Shown here: piece by piece, positions 3,015 to 17,107 of the stretch
Position numbering within the stretch: position 1 is the stretch's first letter
Layout: each line of letters begins with the position of its first letter
DNA from: Fragilariopsis cylindrus CCMP1102
Lineage: Eukaryota > Bacillariophyta > Bacillariophyceae > Bacillariales > Bacillariaceae
Direction of reading: 5' to 3'
NCBI GenBank assembly: GCA_900095095.1
Contig: FMBT01000611.1
Span: 1 to 36,027 of the forward strand
Length of the DNA: 36,027 nt
The notes under the pieces: generated by a model
The model's input: the letters and a program-made list of their open reading frames with translations, nothing else
Told to the model about the DNA's origin: nothing
The model's database searches: none
Translations under genes and position numbers: made by a program

Positions 3015-4553
3015 TTACATTTTCTTGGATTTCTTCTTGAGTTGTTTCTTTGTTTTCTTGGTACTCTTTTTCTTTTGACTCTTTGTAGTTGGTGAATTTG
3101 TGGGTACATCAGTTGGCCTGCTGCTTGGGAGATCAGATGGCTGCTGAGACGGCTCAAAACCAGGAGCAAAACATCCCTGTGTATAGTTTTGACACCATGG
3201 TCCAAGGGTTGCATTTGGACTTCTTATACCATTAGGACAATCAGTACCAGACAACATAAAAGATGTATCCACAGTACCAGATGTCTTTCCAGCCCATGTG
3301 GAAAGACATTGATTAAAAACACTTGAACCAGAGAAACTAAAAAACATAGAATCCATAGTCCTTACCTGAGAGACATCCCATGAGTCAATAGTTTGGTTGA
3401 ATTTTATTGCATTAGCAAACATTGAATCCATATACTCTACTTGTGAGGTGTTCCAATAACCAATAGGTTGGTCGAAAGATTTTGCACTACGAAACATATA
3501 TCTCATATCCTTTACCTGAGAGACATCCCATGAGCCAATCAGTTGGTTGAAATATGTTGCCCCATTAAACACACCAAGCATTGATGTAACCTGTCCAACA
3601 TTCCAGCACTCTAATGGAGCATTAAAAAAACTATCCTCAAATGCATAAGACATATTAGTAATGCCTGCTGTATTCCAGCAACTAATTTCTTCATACATCG
3701 ATGGACAATCTCCATCTTCGTATGTACATCGATAAATTAGATCTTGGAAGGATTCATCATCATTAACAAAAGCAGAAAGGTCCAGACGTGTATCAGAGCA
3801 GAAAGAAGTGCAATTCAACGACGAATCAAGTTGACGGTGATGGTGGTCATATTGTGGGTGATTATGGTAGTAGGAGTCAGTCATTTCCTCCCCTTTATTG
3901 AATTCTTCTCTATCAATGAGGGACATAGTAGTAGTAGCACCATTCTTGTATTTCATATCTTCTTGAGCAGAAAGTGGAACACAATATCCACTAGATGCAT
4001 AGGATGCATCTTCTGGTTCAAAAAAGGCACCATTTTCTCCAATTGCTTTGTTTTGAGGAACACAAGCATCATTAGGGGACGAGCAGGTACCTCGTTTTAG
4101 ATGACCATAGTCCATCTTCTTAATACTTTCTTTATCCAAAGAGATTTCCCTCTTCATTAAAGAATTATCATCAGAAGTAGCAGTAGCAGTAGTAGCAGCA
4201 ACAGTAGTGGTAGTAGTAGTAGGAAAAATATTGCATTCCTCCAATGATTTTCCTTCTTGATGTTGCTGATGGTCTACTAGATGATGACGCATTTCCTTCT
4301 TCTGCATGATATCACCTTTATCATCAGCAAGGTCTACATCATTTGCTTTGTTAGGACGACCATCAATGCTATTTTGAATCTTCAATGGCTCAAGACGAGA
4401 CTTTTTGCTCTTGTATTTGACTTCGATTAATTCTTCAAGGATTGATTCTGTGACATCATGTAGGACAGAGTCATGGGGTTCTTCCATAGCCATTACAACC
4501 GAAGTCGTCGGAAGGCTTGAAAGGAATGGAATTAACACAGAGGAAAATCTCAT
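3015..4553 (-). CDS. Secreted BspA-like (DUF285) repeat protein
   Basis: An intact single-exon 512-residue protein. Residues 1-22 are a hydrophobic, signal-like N-terminus. Residues about 27-290 are low-complexity, with Thr, His and Asp/Glu stretches. Residues about 293-420 hold five roughly 25-residue repeats of the form (C/S/Y)W(N/D)xxxVxxMxxMFxxAxxFNQ, which is the BspA/DUF285 leucine-rich-like pattern (for example SWDVSQVKDMRYMF). A Cys-containing block follows. The end (about 468-512) is a PSxxPT-type Pro-Ser-Thr segment and a strongly Lys-rich tail. In diatoms this family is large and mostly secreted or cell-surface. The Pro-Ser and Lys segments suggest wall or matrix association, but that is inference. 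The start at 4553 gives the signal-like N-terminus. The downstream Mets at residues 21 and 23 would lose it. Confidence 0.9.
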   Translation of the reverse strand: MRFSSVLIPFLSSLPTTSVVMAMEEPHDSVLHDVTESILEELIEVKYKSKKSRLEPLKIQNSIDGRPNKANDVDLADDKGDIMQKKEMRHHLVDHQQHQEGKSLEECNIFPTTTTTTVAATTATATSDDNSLMKREISLDKESIKKMDYGHLKRGTCSSPNDACVPQNKAIGENGAFFEPEDASYASSGYCVPLSAQEDMKYKNGATTTMSLIDREEFNKGEEMTDSYYHNHPQYDHHHRQLDSSLNCTSFCSDTRLDLSAFVNDDESFQDLIYRCTYEDGDCPSMYEEISCWNTAGITNMSYAFEDSFFNAPLECWNVGQVTSMLGVFNGATYFNQLIGSWDVSQVKDMRYMFRSAKSFDQPIGYWNTSQVEYMDSMFANAIKFNQTIDSWDVSQVRTMDSMFFSFSGSSVFNQCLSTWAGKTSGTVDTSFMLSGTDCPNGIRSPNATLGPWCQNYTQGCFAPGFEPSQQPSDLPSSRPTDVPTNSPTTKSQKKKSTKKTKKQLKKKSKKM

Positions 4554-6521: not shown

Positions 6522-7570
6522 ATGAACAGTAGCAACAACAACACAATTGCGAACAAACTGATCGCAGTTGACGAATCTACTACTACTACTACTACTACTA
6601 CTACAATGATCAATATTACTTCGAATAATCCGTCGTCGCAATCAGCTTTCAATAATAATAATAGTAATAAAAACAAGAAACGTAAGATGATGACTCATCA
6701 TTATCATCAAGAAGTAGAAGAAGAAGAAGAGGACAGTGATACTACGACCTATACTACTACTACTACTACACGTACACTACAGTGTTGTAATCATCCAACG
6801 CTACTCCTATTACACCACCAAAACCTCCTGTAGCTCTTTTATTACCATTCCCATCATTGAAACAAGAAGGAGAGGAGGAGGAAGAAGAAGAAGAAGGCAG
6901 TGGCAGTGATATTAATAGTGGCAATAATAATAATGTTCGAGATTATCTTCGTGAACAACTTGTGACGTCATTTCCATCGACATTACATTTAATTCTTCGA
7001 TTTGAATCATTCTCTGCTACAGATGATGATAATATTGATAATGATGATATTGACTATGAAGATTATGATGAATTTGATGGTAACGACGTCGACGACGACG
7101 ACGACGACGACAGTGATATTGTACACCCCATTGAAGAAGACGATAATGATGAAATTGAAATTGATAACACCACTACTGTCTCAATAAATGAAATTAAACA
7201 GAACGAAACAATTCCGTTACTACTACCAGTAATTGGATGGTGCAAAGATGGAAAATCATTTCTAATTTATGATGAAGAACGTTTTGTCAATGAAATGATG
7301 TCCCAGTATTTTTTATGTGGTTATAATAGTGCTGATCAAAATTTTCAAACATTTCAACAAATGTTAGATCTATGGGGATTTACTATTACTACGACTACGA
7401 CTACTACTAGTACTCATCACACATGTTGTGATGTTATTGTTATTGTTGATGATTATGATCCTATTCAAGAAGTAGAAGAAGAAGAAGTTGCAGTACAGCA
7501 TATCTGTAGTCATCCCTTATTTATCAGAGATAATCCTGATGCAATTCAACAAATGAAATTTTTCATGTAA
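6522..7570 (+). CDS. HSF-type DNA-binding domain protein, divergent
   Basis: Predicted transcription factor of the heat-shock-factor family, which is strongly expanded in diatoms. The ATG at 6522 opens a Thr/Asn-rich N-terminus with a basic patch (KNKKRK). The frame then changes. A GT-AG intron ending at 6833 and starting at 6772, 6784 or 6787 restores phase, and all three donors give the same downstream frame. Exon 2 carries the domain: a helix-1-like FPSTLHLILRFE, then WCKDGKSFLIYDEERF, then SQYF, then the recognition-helix region ending in LWGF, and finally HPLFIRDNPDAIQQMK. These match the HSF order (W..dGksF, YF, YGF, HP.F.Rg). Oddities: an Asp/Glu-rich insert of about 60 residues between helix 1 and the Trp, a Thr run after LWGF, and QQML where most HSFs have RQLN. 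The protein ends right after the domain, with no oligomerisation region seen. Confidence 0.75.
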
Positions 7571-11567: not shown

Positions 11568-14017
11568 AACTTCTTCTGTTGTGGAAAAAATCTTATTCAA
11601 AATGAAAAATATTGCTGCTATTACTGTGGCTGCAAATACGAATACATTCCTAGACAATAATAATGAAAGACAACAACAACAACAACAACAACATTCACAA
11701 CAAGACGACGACGATGACACTGACAATACTGCTACTGCTACAGTAGTACCATTATCATTAGTATCAAAACAACAAATACATGATTCGATCAATAATGCTA
11801 TAGCAATTCTATCCAATGGATTAATTGAACGGAAGGAAGATGCAAAACTAGTGGTATTAGCATTTATAGCAAATGAACATATCTTATTGGTACGTACCGT
11901 ACATACTGTAATATAGTCATGTCATGTCATGCCATCTATCACCCTACCTACCTACCCGCAAGGCAGCAACCCTGGAATTTAATTCCTGCCCTCTTCCTTC
12001 CTTCCTGGTTTGATTTGATTTGATTTGATTTGATTTGATTTGAAGGGAAGGAAGGGGAGGAAGATTTTGCGGACGCTCTACCACCTACTGTGCTTGCTTT
12101 ATGTTTAGGGTTGTTAGGATCAGTTCATTGCATTGCTCCGGGGTTGGATTGGTTTTGTTATTATGTTCCGACGAAGCAAAGTTCATCTTTCACTTACTTA
12201 CGCACTTACTTATTTATTTATTTTATCTGTGTTATATTTCTCACTCTTTCTCTCTTTTTTTTTTTTACAATACAATATAATACAATACAATACAACAGCT
12301 AGGGAAACCTGGTACTGGTAAATCTGTATTAGGATTACGACTATCTAAATTACTTGCTTCATCTACCGGTAGTGGATCATCATCATCATCATTATCCGAC
12401 AACAACAACAATGGCAGCAACAACACACAAACACAAAGACAAACACAAACACAAACACCACAAATTTTCTTCCAACGATTGTTAACAAAATTTACAACAC
12501 CCGAAGAATTATTTGGTCCATTAAGTTTAAAAGCATTAGAAAATGATATCTATCGAAGAAATACTGTGGGGTATTTACCAACCTGTCAAATTGCCTTTTT
12601 AGATGAAATATTTAAAGCCAATTCCAGTATCTTAAATACATTATTAACAATATTAAATGAAAGAAAATTTGATAATGGTATACCAATACCATTGGAAGAT
12701 GCAGATGACGATAATACTGATAATACTGTGAATGTGATGGCTGGTGGTGGTGGTACAATAAGAGAACATTGTCCAATACGTACTGTGGTGGGTGCCTCTA
12801 ATGAACTTGGAAATGATAGTGATGAATTAATTGCATTATATGATCGATTCCTGATCAGAAAAGAAGTATTACCAGTATCCGATGAGAATATAATACAATT
12901 ACTACAATTGCAACAACAATCGCAAACTCAATCCCATCAATCACAGTCGCAACAATCACAACAAGAAAGTGAAAATGAAAATGAAATCGACGATGATAAT
13001 AATAATAATAGCAATAACCCTGATTTAGTAGAATTAGATGATGTAATCAAATATTTATCAAGTACTGTAGATGATTCCAATTCAATAATCATAGATCATG
13101 ATGCATGTCTGATATTAAAAAATCTACGGATCTATTTAAGAGACAATCACGATATTACTATAAGTGATCGTCGATTAGTGAAAATTGTCAAATTAGTAAA
13201 ATTAAGTGCAGCCTGTGATTTACGAACTCAAGTCGATCCAATTATTGATTTTATAAGTATATTACAACATTGTTTATGGAATATACCATCGGAACGTATT
13301 ATTATTAGAGATTGGTTATGGGATAATATAACACCATTAGACTACAGCAATAATGGGGATGGTGGAAATAATATTACACCAAATCAATTGCGATTTTTAC
13401 TTCAAAATCTTCGACAAGAAATTTTAGATATATTAAAGAATAAAACAAATGGATGTATTGAGACTGGAGGAGCAGTAGCTCAAATAGTAAAACAAGATGA
13501 TATAAAAGTACTGGATAGTTTACGAATAGAACTAGAAAATATTATGGTAATTGCACAAACTAAAATGAATAGTTTAGTACGACATATAGCATTAATACAT
13601 CGATTGGAATTGAAAGAAGCAGACACTAAAGGCAATACTGATAATAATAATACTAACAATTTTGCAGTATGGATGGATCCAGACGATGTGAGTACCATCC
13701 AACAACTACTATTACCACGTGCCGAATTATTATTACCAGAAATAAAATCAATTGTGGAAGATGCAGAGGTATTACAACAAGCAATTTCAATTTCATCTAT
13801 TCCAATTATTCCAAGTAATTATCTTCGTATAGATATAATTGAAATGATATGGGATTTAGATGTAGATGAAGACAATAATAGTAACGACAACAACAGAGAT
13901 TTTACATCCAATGAACTTCAAATGACTAGTAAAGAAGCACAATCGAAATATGATTTAGAGACATTCCGTCGATGGAAAAGAGCAATTAAAAAACAAAAAC
14001 AAAAAAAGAAGAGATAA
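11071..14017 (+). CDS. RavA/MoxR-family AAA+ ATPase, probable plastid targeting
   Basis: Two exons, 11071-11889 and 12299-14017, joined in phase 0 across a 409-nt GT-AG intron (GTACGT...ACAACAG), giving about 845 residues. The MoxR motifs run in order: [20 protein letters not shown] and ANEHILL at the end of exon 1, Walker [10 protein letters not shown] starting exon 2 (residues 274-282), [32 protein letters not shown] (Walker B), [13 protein letters not shown], the sensor-1 region VGASNE, then [11 protein letters not shown] and the lid region ISDRRLVK. This is the RavA branch, and such ATPases act as chaperones or metal-centre assembly factors with a VWA partner. No VWA gene is in the window. 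The N-terminus is hydrophobic and ends VVVDG-FATT, resembling the diatom signal-transit junction with Phe at +1. A long acidic/Asn/Gln-rich stretch precedes the core. The first in-frame ATG (11071) was chosen over the GTG 12 nt upstream. Confidence 0.93.
11890..12298 (+). other. Intron of the RavA-like gene
   Basis: The boundaries are fixed by protein homology: exon 1 ends EHILL and exon 2 begins LGKPGTGKS. Donor GTACGT, acceptor CAACAG. Inside are a TTTGA array (about 12008-12043), a T-run (about 12254-12266) and an ATACA run just before the acceptor. At 409 nt it is the longest intron seen in the window. Confidence 0.9.
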
Positions 14018-14277: not shown

Positions 14278-17107
14278 TCATCGCCTCTTTGCAATAACAT
14301 CTCGTACCGAATCAGCAAGATATTTTATTTCAAATTCATCGTATGACATAGATTTATCTGAAGAATGCTCAAATGCTAATTTAGCTGTTGCCATATATGG
14401 TATTGAAACATCGATTGCTTCATCGATGACAATTTCTTTTTTCGATTCTTCATGATGATGAATCAATTGTTCCTTGGAAGCAGTTGATGATCGATTTGCA
14501 TGATCCATAATAACTTGAAGGGTTAGCATCAGGTCTTCGTCGTGAGAGATAGATACGACGGGTGCTGCCTTCTTCGTTTCTTCTTGTTTCGCAACGGGTG
14601 CTACCGGTGCTGCTGGTGCCGGTGCTGTCTTCTTTTCTTCTATTTTGGCAACGACGGGTGCTGGTGCTGCCTTCTTTTCTTCTTTTTTATTGGCTTCTGG
14701 AGCAGGAACAGGTTCTTTCTTCACCTTCACTTCTGCTTTCGGTGCTGCTGGTGGTGCCACCTCCGCTTGCACAGCAGGTGCAGCTTCTTCTTCCTCCTCT
14801 TCCTTTGGTTCAAGAGCTTTCGCCGCCATAAAGGCAGCAAGTGCTGTTGCTTCGGGAGTACGTGGTATTGTGGTAAAGGAAATATCATCTCCGGCACGAT
14901 CTACACCCTTGTATTCTTCCTTGAGGATCTGAATCAGGAGAGGAATTAATTCTTCATCTTCGAGTGGAATGCCTTTGTAGGTCGGTTCGAGAGCTAAATG
15001 AGCATCTTCCCCAATCCGTCCACCCACAAATATTTTACATCCCGGCACGGCCATCTTTTCCCATCGACCATTTTCTTAGCAGGTGCACCCATAATACCAA
15101 TATCAGCTACTTGGACTTGTCCACACGAATTAGGACATCCCGTCCAATGGATACGCACCGGTTGTGGTGTCACTACCAGTTCTTCGAGCAGTTTCGCCAC
15201 ACGTTCAGCATTGTGTTTCGTTTCGACCATCGCAAAACCACAAAATTCAGCACCGGTACAGGACACTACACCCCCTTCGATTTTACCAGGATTGGCCTTC
15301 ATGCGTGTATTGACACCATTGATGGATGGTTCCGCTAACAATAAAGGAACATCAGCCTCTAAGACATTCGGCAACAAAACATTTTGTTCTACGGTACAAC
15401 GTACTTCACTGTTGGAATACCGTTCGGCTAAATCCGCGAGTTGACGACATTCGGTGGCACTCAATCGTCCGACCGGTACCAGGATGCCTACTCGGTACAA
15501 CCCTTTTTGTTTTTGTTCGTGGACACCCAACAAATCACGTCGTTCAAACGGTTCGGTAGGTTTTGGTTGTGTCTCTTCAACGACGACACCACGATCATAG
15601 GAATTAATTTCTTCAATAATTTTAGCTTTGTAATCATCAACACCATATTTCTCCACCAACCACATCAAGCGTGCCTTTTGACGATCTTTGCGTTCACCTT
15701 CATCACGGAAAACTCGTAGAATTGCTTCACACAACGTATTGACACTATTAAGATCCGCCTTGACCCACATTTTCGAATCAATCGAATGTGCGACACGTTT
15801 AATCGACATATAGCCACCCAATACTAAATTAAATCCCATTTCACCCGTGACAGCATGTGGACACGGTTGTAAGCCAATATCATTAATATCAGTATGAGCA
15901 AAATCATCTCGTGATCCCGACACCGCAATATTAAATTTTCGTGGCAAGTTTCCCCATTGTGGATTACCACGTGTACCGGTAGCAGGATCTAAGGTAATTA
16001 AATCATTCAAGATATTGCAATACGGACGAGTGTCGACCATTTCCAATGGATCAATACCGGCCAATGGTGAACCGACCATATTCCGTACATTATCTAAGGC
16101 ACTTTGAAAAGATGTTTGATTCCGAGCATGCAAGCCATCAATGACACTATCGGCATCTTCCAGTTTAATACCACGCATTTGCATATTTTGTCGTGTCGTA
16201 ATATCGACGACCCCAAAATCGGTACCATATTTTTCAACACTATCGGCATAAAACCGCAATTGATCAGAATTGACAATACCATTCGGAACTTTGAGACGCA
16301 TTAAAAATTGTCCCGGTGTACGTTTACCACGATGAATCATCCCTACCCATTTCAATCTCTAATAAATATATTGATATTGAAGTGTGTGTGGTATGAAATT
16401 GAATGAATGTGTGAAGAGAGTGTAAAGAAGGGAAAAGAGAGTGAGAGTATGAGTCTACAATGTTAGAGAAGGAGGACAAAACAAGGCAAGGCAAAAAGAA
16501 GAAGAAGAGAGAGTAGCAAATACACGCACACACAATACGCACAACACAACGAACTTAAAGACACTATCACTATTCAAATACAAATACAAATACAAATATA
16601 TATACGTACCGTTTCTAAATCTGCCTTTTCGACTTCCTTCCAGGTCATTTCACCTTCACGGATTTTACGTGCAAATTCATACACATCCACATAGGCACTA
16701 CCGGGATCACCCGTTAATTTTGCTTTCTCAACGGGGGATCCTTTTGCTAATCGTGCTACTGTTTCTTCCGGTAAGAAGGAGGTCCCAGTCACCTTCCCCG
16801 CATGTAATTTGATTTCTTCGGCACGATTGTGATGGTGTGCGTGTTGTTCATGTTCAATCTCGGACGATGTGGTTGTTGCAGTATCGACATCTGCATCTTC
16901 ATCCACAACAGCCGAATTTAAATGAAAGGAGGACGTTCTAATTGCTGATCTTGCTGCTGCTCTTGTGATAGTTGTGGATGATGCTTTAATTGTTGGTGTA
17001 CATGATACTTTCGGTGTTGTTGGTACGACAACGAATGACGAAGCGAACGTAATAGAGGCTGTTGCTATTAGAAGCAACAGAAAGTTTCTCATATCGAATA
17101 TCATCAT
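14278..17107 (-). CDS. NIR: Ferredoxin-nitrite reductase, plastid, with C-terminal extension
   Basis: Reduces nitrite to ammonium in the plastid with six electrons from ferredoxin. Exon 1 is 17107-16610 (166 residues) and exon 2 starts at 16358. The 251-nt GT-AG intron (16609-16359) joins KADLET to RLKWVG in phase 0. The N-terminus (MRNFLLLLIATASITFASSF) ends in an ASSF junction typical of diatom plastid preproteins. Catalytic signatures are intact: GNPQWGNLPRKFNIAVSG, then the [4Fe-4S]/siroheme cysteines in SCTGAEFC and GCPNSCGQ. The frame breaks at 15056-15059, where the coding strand has four A's; a fifth A would restore DGKKMAVPGCKIF. Both sides are well conserved, so an assembly or sequencing indel is likely. 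The family normally ends near ILKEEYKG. Here about 208 more residues follow: a Lys/Glu/Ala/Pro linker, then a compact helical-looking block ending SVRDVIAKRR. GC content is visibly higher than in the neighbours, fitting high expression. Confidence 0.96.
16359..16609 (-). other. Intron of nitrite reductase
   Basis: A 251-nt intron with donor GTACGT and acceptor ATTAG on the minus strand. It is supported by continuity of the nitrite reductase protein on both sides (WKEVEKADLET then RLKWVGMIHRG). Confidence 0.9.

Follow-up and report, generated by a model that had tools for sequence, protein, structure and literature searches.

A C-terminal extension of plastid nitrite reductase in Fragilariopsis cylindrus ends in a two-unit module found in other gene families and is a candidate docking tail

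Introduction

Does the nitrite reductase (NiR) of Fragilariopsis cylindrus CCMP1102 continue for about 208 residues beyond the end of the enzyme, and if so, what could the additional part be for? The question was raised by a first-pass annotation of the window, by which we mean the whole stretch of DNA analysed here (36,027 nucleotides, contig C695; the assembly has 818 contigs and 67.9 Mb). It described a frame running on past the usual end of NiR into a Lys/Glu/Ala/Pro linker and an end block of about 90 residues, and suggested a tethered partner-binding or redox-docking module.

Results

The nitrite reductase gene and its reading frame

The gene is located on the minus strand. Its predicted parts, with exon boundaries set by eye from the sequence, are as follows:

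16610..17107, minus strand: exon 1 of NiR with 166 codons, encoding a plastid-type presequence (MMIFDMRNFLLLLIATASITFASSFVVVP...) and the beginning of the mature enzyme
16359..16609, minus strand: intron of 251 nt, GT...AG, phase 0, splice read from the sequence
16358-14278, minus strand: whole of exon 2, NiR body and tail
14905..16358, minus strand: exon-2 part encoding the catalytic body of NiR, with the domains NIR_SIR and NIR_SIR_ferr; the frame is broken at 15059-15056
15056..15059, minus strand: run of A that lacks one base relative to the second gene copy (C460) and switches the frame
14812..14904, minus strand: neck, 31 residues
14554..14811, minus strand: tether, 86 residues, 80% Lys/Glu/Ala/Pro
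14419..14553, minus strand: unit A (SISHDEDLMLTLQVIMDHANRSSTASKEQLI...), 45 residues
14281..14412, minus strand: unit B (DVSIPYMATAKLAFEHSSDKSMSYDEFEIKYLADSVRDVIAKRR), 44 residues
14278..14280, minus strand: stop codon TGA

Exon 1 is an open frame from the ATG at 17107 to the donor site. Here and below, presequence types were assigned by eye from familiar motifs; the ASAFAP-type motif marks plastid presequences. With the second copy of the gene (contig C460) as the query, the Pfam domains NIR_SIR and NIR_SIR_ferr were matched at E = 7.8e-48 and 3.8e-37, and a solved NiR in the PDB at E = 1.5e-131. The NiR translation contains CTGAEFC and CPNSC, which we take to be the cluster-cysteine motif of NiR, and thus the four cysteines for the 4Fe-4S/siroheme centre. 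Judging from domains and homology, the enzyme is a plastid ferredoxin-type nitrite reductase.

Plant chloroplast NiR (chain 2akj, presumably from spinach, and 3b0g/3b0h, presumably from tobacco) is homologous across the body encoded by exon 2, whose start aligns to residue 136 of 2akj. Residues 136-605 of this chain (608 aa) align to residues 1-490 of the C460 query, which has 691 aa counted from the start of exon 2. The solved chains stop near the start of the extension, and the 2akj match ends six residues inside it and goes no further. A search of PDB sequences gave no match to the A/B module, a further difference from the plant enzymes.

As the annotation had proposed, positions 14904-14278 of the minus strand encode 208 residues and a stop codon, and they share their frame with the final portion of NiR. 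Its claim of a continuous frame from the enzyme into the extension stood only in part: the last NiR codons are in the frame of the tail and the second copy is unbroken, but the frame of the window is broken within NiR. Since the window is one base short in the run of A at 15059-15056, the NiR body and the tail are in different frames, with most of the exon-2 body in ORF 16358-14994 and the last NiR codons and the tail in ORF 15075-14278. The C460 copy, which is 94.8% identical to the window in DNA over a 2,266-position piece containing exon 2, has one extra A in the run. A single open frame of 747 codons, beginning with 55 codons of intron read-through, spans body and tail in this copy. The copy also has a matching, open exon 1 with a FASAFVVVP presequence, and the in-frame GC3 of its NiR body is 0.35. 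The missing base may be an assembly error or indicate a broken allele; we lean towards an error, because frame breaks also occur in members of the gene families described below (C511, C516, C66, and C413).

The difference between the body and tail frames in the window could also mean that the tail is a separate neighbouring gene, which we had joined to NiR by eye. However, in C460 there is one open frame with no stop between body and tail, and even in the window the final residues of NiR share the frame of the tail. The artefact is thus close to refuted, chiefly by the second copy, and we regard it as extremely improbable; by the same evidence, the C-terminal extension of NiR is real. The assembly also contains another NiR gene, on contig C69. 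It has a plastid-type SAFVP presequence, shows 70.6% identity across the 316 residues that were compared, and ends without a tail.

Several other features of the window and the assembly were recorded. The tail-to-tail neighbour of NiR (12281-14017, plus strand) encodes a MoxR-like AAA ATPase (bpMoxR 1.2e-32, AAA_lid_8 1.1e-11), and the same arrangement of the two genes is kept in C460. The window further contains a 512-aa ORF with a DUF285 match (3015-4553, minus strand, 2.7e-51) and a 237-aa ORF with an HSF-type DNA-binding domain (6857-7570, plus strand, 5.8e-10). A total of 104 matches to the light-harvesting family PF00504, counting fragments, occur in the genome; for two of these genes compared with the PDB, the top matches were multi-domain LHCI chains of 9vfj, and fucoxanthin-protein chains (6ly5, 8z11; 8iwh) ranked lower. 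Taken with the phenylalanine-type presequences, this is consistent with a diatom or another ochrophyte, without being specific to one lineage. No gene for the Rubisco large subunit was found in the assembly, from which the plastid genome therefore seems to be absent.

Anatomy and conservation of the tail

The Lys/Glu/Ala/Pro linker and the end block of about 90 residues were found where the annotation had placed them, and the end block could be divided into units A and B, separated by two residues. The parts of the gene differ in how they changed between the window and C460. We counted 59 synonymous and 5 nonsynonymous changes in the NiR body, 4 and 2 in the neck, 3 and 7 in the tether, together with one three-base indel, and 3 and 0 in A+B. 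Fisher's test gave p = 0.0097 for synonymous versus nonsynonymous changes in A+B, where counts are small (3 synonymous), and 0.0052 for nonsynonymous changes in the tether versus A+B. As read from the two copies, the tether drifts whereas the A+B end is conserved.

The extension contains neither Cys nor Trp in its 208 residues; lacking Cys, it is no redox centre in its own right. There was no convincing match of the tail to a known domain in Pfam, NCBIfam or PDB sequences. In Pfam, the extension matched only one family at E<=1 (BKRF4, 0.35); this match and the NCBIfam match to DNA polymerase III gamma/tau (0.0085; 14.8 bits against a cut-off of 875) both overlap the low-complexity tether and were rejected. 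Short segments of the tail are helix-prone, with hydrophobic moments up to about 0.35. The FoldIndex charge-hydropathy values were borderline for the module (-0.10 for A, 0.08 for B, -0.01 for A+B) and -0.01 for the tether, so that the index does not separate the module from its tether.

We also considered an EF-hand origin of the units, as S-T-V-S-K-E-Q-F and D-K-S-M-S-Y-D-E-F are EF-like. The profiles were not supportive: hhalign against calmodulin units gave probabilities of 1.03% for A and 0.37% for B, from tiny alignments and without a positive control, no EF-hand family was found in Pfam at E<=1, and the copy of B in C66 (see below) lacks the acidic loop. This origin was set aside.

The linker had been likened to those of acyltransferase E2 subunits, in which a mobile linker rich in Ala, Pro, Lys and Glu lies ahead of a small domain. 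The likeness was seen in the composition of the tether only; the extension has no match to the lipoyl or peripheral-subunit-binding domains of Pfam.

The module recurs in other gene families

Searches of this genome's own assembly indicated that A and B are not specific to NiR: they recur in four other gene families, a number to be read as a lower bound because only the best candidates were scored. The NiR tail matched other loci at E = 6.3e-28 (the C523 family), and 12 of the 13 matches of this search fell in NiR or the four families, the remaining one being the NiR body of C69. Further searches within the genome placed 13/13, 6/7, 13/13 and 7/7 matches in the same set. Consensus-like peptide queries gave 14/15 and 7/7, but as these peptides were made up, their matches are no independent proof. 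Unit A recurs at C523/C516 (1.7e-10) and more weakly at C98/C657 (0.005; 0.003 in reverse). Unit B recurs at C523 (five in tandem), C516, C504/C413 (two each) and, more weakly, C66 (one). Weak matches at C411 (E 0.15) and C265 (E 0.11) were left out of the family count. No relatives were confirmed in viral contigs, prokaryote genomes or plasmids, the contig scans each relying on a few short peptide words. No paper describing this tail or module was among the literature matches listed, as judged from titles and abstract starts.

C523 encodes a small, 311-aa protein with a GAFAPS presequence followed by A and five tandem B units with a 44-residue period; C516 is a cut, frame-broken copy of this gene at a contig end. 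Units B2-B5 are mutually 95-100% identical, and B1 is 60-63% identical to them. The mature part is acidic (pI 4.7) and has no Trp, and the FoldIndex-type value for the repeats was 0.15. Several family matches of this protein were rejected: Rep3_C (1.6e-7; 31.9 bits, above the cut-off of 21.1) and NCBIfam E492_microcin (1.4e-7), each with 0 stretches passing alone, NCBIfam NucT (4e-7; 3 stretches, 29.8 bits against 297), and NCBIfam PRK11864.1 (0.54; 1 stretch) and others. We read such matches as sums over repeated segments.

The NiR tail and the A, spacer and B1 part of the repeat protein form a single alignment block with 62-64% identity and a dS of about 1.2. For A+B versus A+B1 we obtained 63.6% identity over 88 codons, dN 0.22 and dS 1.17, so that substitutions between the two genes are biased towards synonymous ones. 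The one-block alignment suggests that the module was acquired whole, and NiR probably gained A+B as a unit, long ago.

The cold-shock family (C504 and C413) has two B units, a Val/Glu/Lys-rich stretch and a cold-shock domain (3.3e-10, scanned on C504). The upstream part of this gene is in different frames in C504:38000-47900 and C413. Over 289 nt, the B1-B2 segment of C504/C413 and that of C523 share 98.6% DNA identity (dS 0.04), which implies a recent movement of the module between genes. By sequence it is a recent copy between the cold-shock gene and the repeat-protein gene, in either direction, and this near-identical pair of B units demonstrates, in one case, the copying of coding segments between genes.

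The other two families are softer members, given their modest scores against the repeat protein (E 1e-3 to 6e-5). C66 (C66:14845-15006) has a plastid-type presequence and one diverged B, and was matched with C523 at E 7.6e-4 and 1.5e-4 in the two directions; an acidic stretch (SDDDASDAEDDENEVED) follows B in another frame. C98 and C657 have a plastid-type presequence, then A, then a further region with no significant Pfam and no PDB match; this family was matched with C523 at E 7.9e-4 and 5.9e-5 in the two directions and with NiR at 0.003-0.005. A 42-residue stretch with unit A, chosen by its shared peptide, is identical in protein between C98 and C657 with 5 synonymous differences, and C511 (C511:30829-30918) is a third copy of this A-bearing gene, with frame breaks. 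Plastid-type presequences were thus recognised by eye in both NiR copies, the repeat protein, C66 and C98, and three of the four other carrier families are apparently plastid proteins.

Discussion

What the extension is for can be approached from the company its module keeps. We give about even weight to the reading that it is a C-terminal targeting or docking tail of plastid NiR that carries a stromal docking module. The tethered module that had been proposed fits the drifting tether and the conserved, separable end, which recurs in mostly plastid-type proteins and once in tandem; the partner binding stays putative. A protein with tandem units together with single tethered copies on an enzyme suggests a hub-and-clients layout. 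In such a layout, B (and A) would attach to one another or to a partner shared in the stroma, the repeat protein would be the multivalent hub of a stromal assembly, and NiR would be a client held near the hub by its flexible tether with the active site unhindered. Nitrite would accordingly be reduced at a single stromal site, with the tail-less NiR remaining free.

Systems of related logic are known. The Chlamydomonas EPYC1 system combines a tandem-repeat plastid protein with single motif copies on other proteins, as described in parts of PMC10473226. The likeness to this Rubisco-binding-motif system, taken from the description, is in logic only, and the present repeat protein is acidic. PYCO1, the Rubisco linker of the diatom Phaeodactylum, is built of repeats about 80 residues long, carries KWSP stickers and has a pI of 10.03, according to passages of PMC10288592. 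It is likewise a tandem-repeat protein of a red-lineage plastid, but in the protein described here the repeats are 44 residues long, the mature part lacks Trp, and the pI is acidic. As to a PYCO1-type sticker, the one exact codon pattern tried (KWSPRGG, which does not cover KWSPQ or split motifs) was absent from the genome. A spacing of 20-120 residues between repeats is among the criteria for Rubisco linkers given in sections of PMC11570498; the five B units of C523, with their 44-residue period, fall within this range, but the protein is neither strongly basic nor a carrier of KWSP. Because it is acidic and has no PYCO1 sticker, we do not claim that it belongs to the Rubisco linkers.

A bolder form of the docking reading, with a condensate or the pyrenoid as the site, is less likely. 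Much as the Rubisco-binding motif brings Chlamydomonas proteins into the pyrenoid, A and B may act as stickers in a hitherto undescribed assembly of the stroma, which the tandem-B protein would build and to which NiR and other plastid proteins would be recruited as clients through the one copy they carry. This would give nitrite reduction a spatial organisation, perhaps in or near the pyrenoid, alongside the free NiR. It speaks against the pyrenoid that nitrite has 0 occurrences in the main text of the Chlamydomonas pyrenoid proteome paper (PMC10473203); the main texts of two reviews also have 0.

Other functions of the tail have to be weighed against docking in the stroma. The A+B end could attach to a membrane surface (thylakoid or envelope), to a chaperone or to a protease, and set the amount or place of NiR without any scaffold. 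The helix-prone segments with their hydrophobic moments are in line with this idea, as is the occurrence of a single unit in C66 (B) and C98 (A), but it leaves unexplained a protein that consists of almost only A and tandem B, and we consider it unlikely. We see even less reason to favour the redox docking suggested by the annotation, in which the tail would recruit ferredoxin or ferredoxin-NADP reductase and raise the local concentration of the electron donor. NiR of this type accepts electrons from ferredoxin, which a tethered domain could present, and cyanobacteria have NiRs to which a ferredoxin domain is fused at the C-terminus, although no paper on such a fusion was among the literature matches listed. 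A fused ferredoxin would carry the four Cys of the 2Fe-2S centre; the present extension has none and no ferredoxin-like or other domain match in Pfam or the PDB. In addition, the other carriers of A/B (the repeat protein, the cold-shock-domain protein, and two proteins without a detected domain) are neither recognisable ferredoxin enzymes nor known redox partners. The redox part of the annotation is thus improbable.

The module might also be a functionless passenger, a mobile coding segment spreading between genes. The recent 289-nt copy in the cold-shock-domain gene and the tandem amplification in the repeat protein are what such a segment would leave behind. However, change is biased towards synonymous substitutions both between copies and between genes, and the stretch with unit A is protein-identical in C98 and C657 despite its synonymous differences, which makes a neutral passenger very unlikely.

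Should the module prove to be a docking tag, it would offer a handle on how a red-lineage alga places enzymes within its chloroplast, and nitrate assimilation would be coupled to the organisation of the chloroplast. The presence of a tandem-B protein and a tail-less NiR in one genome makes the docking idea directly testable.
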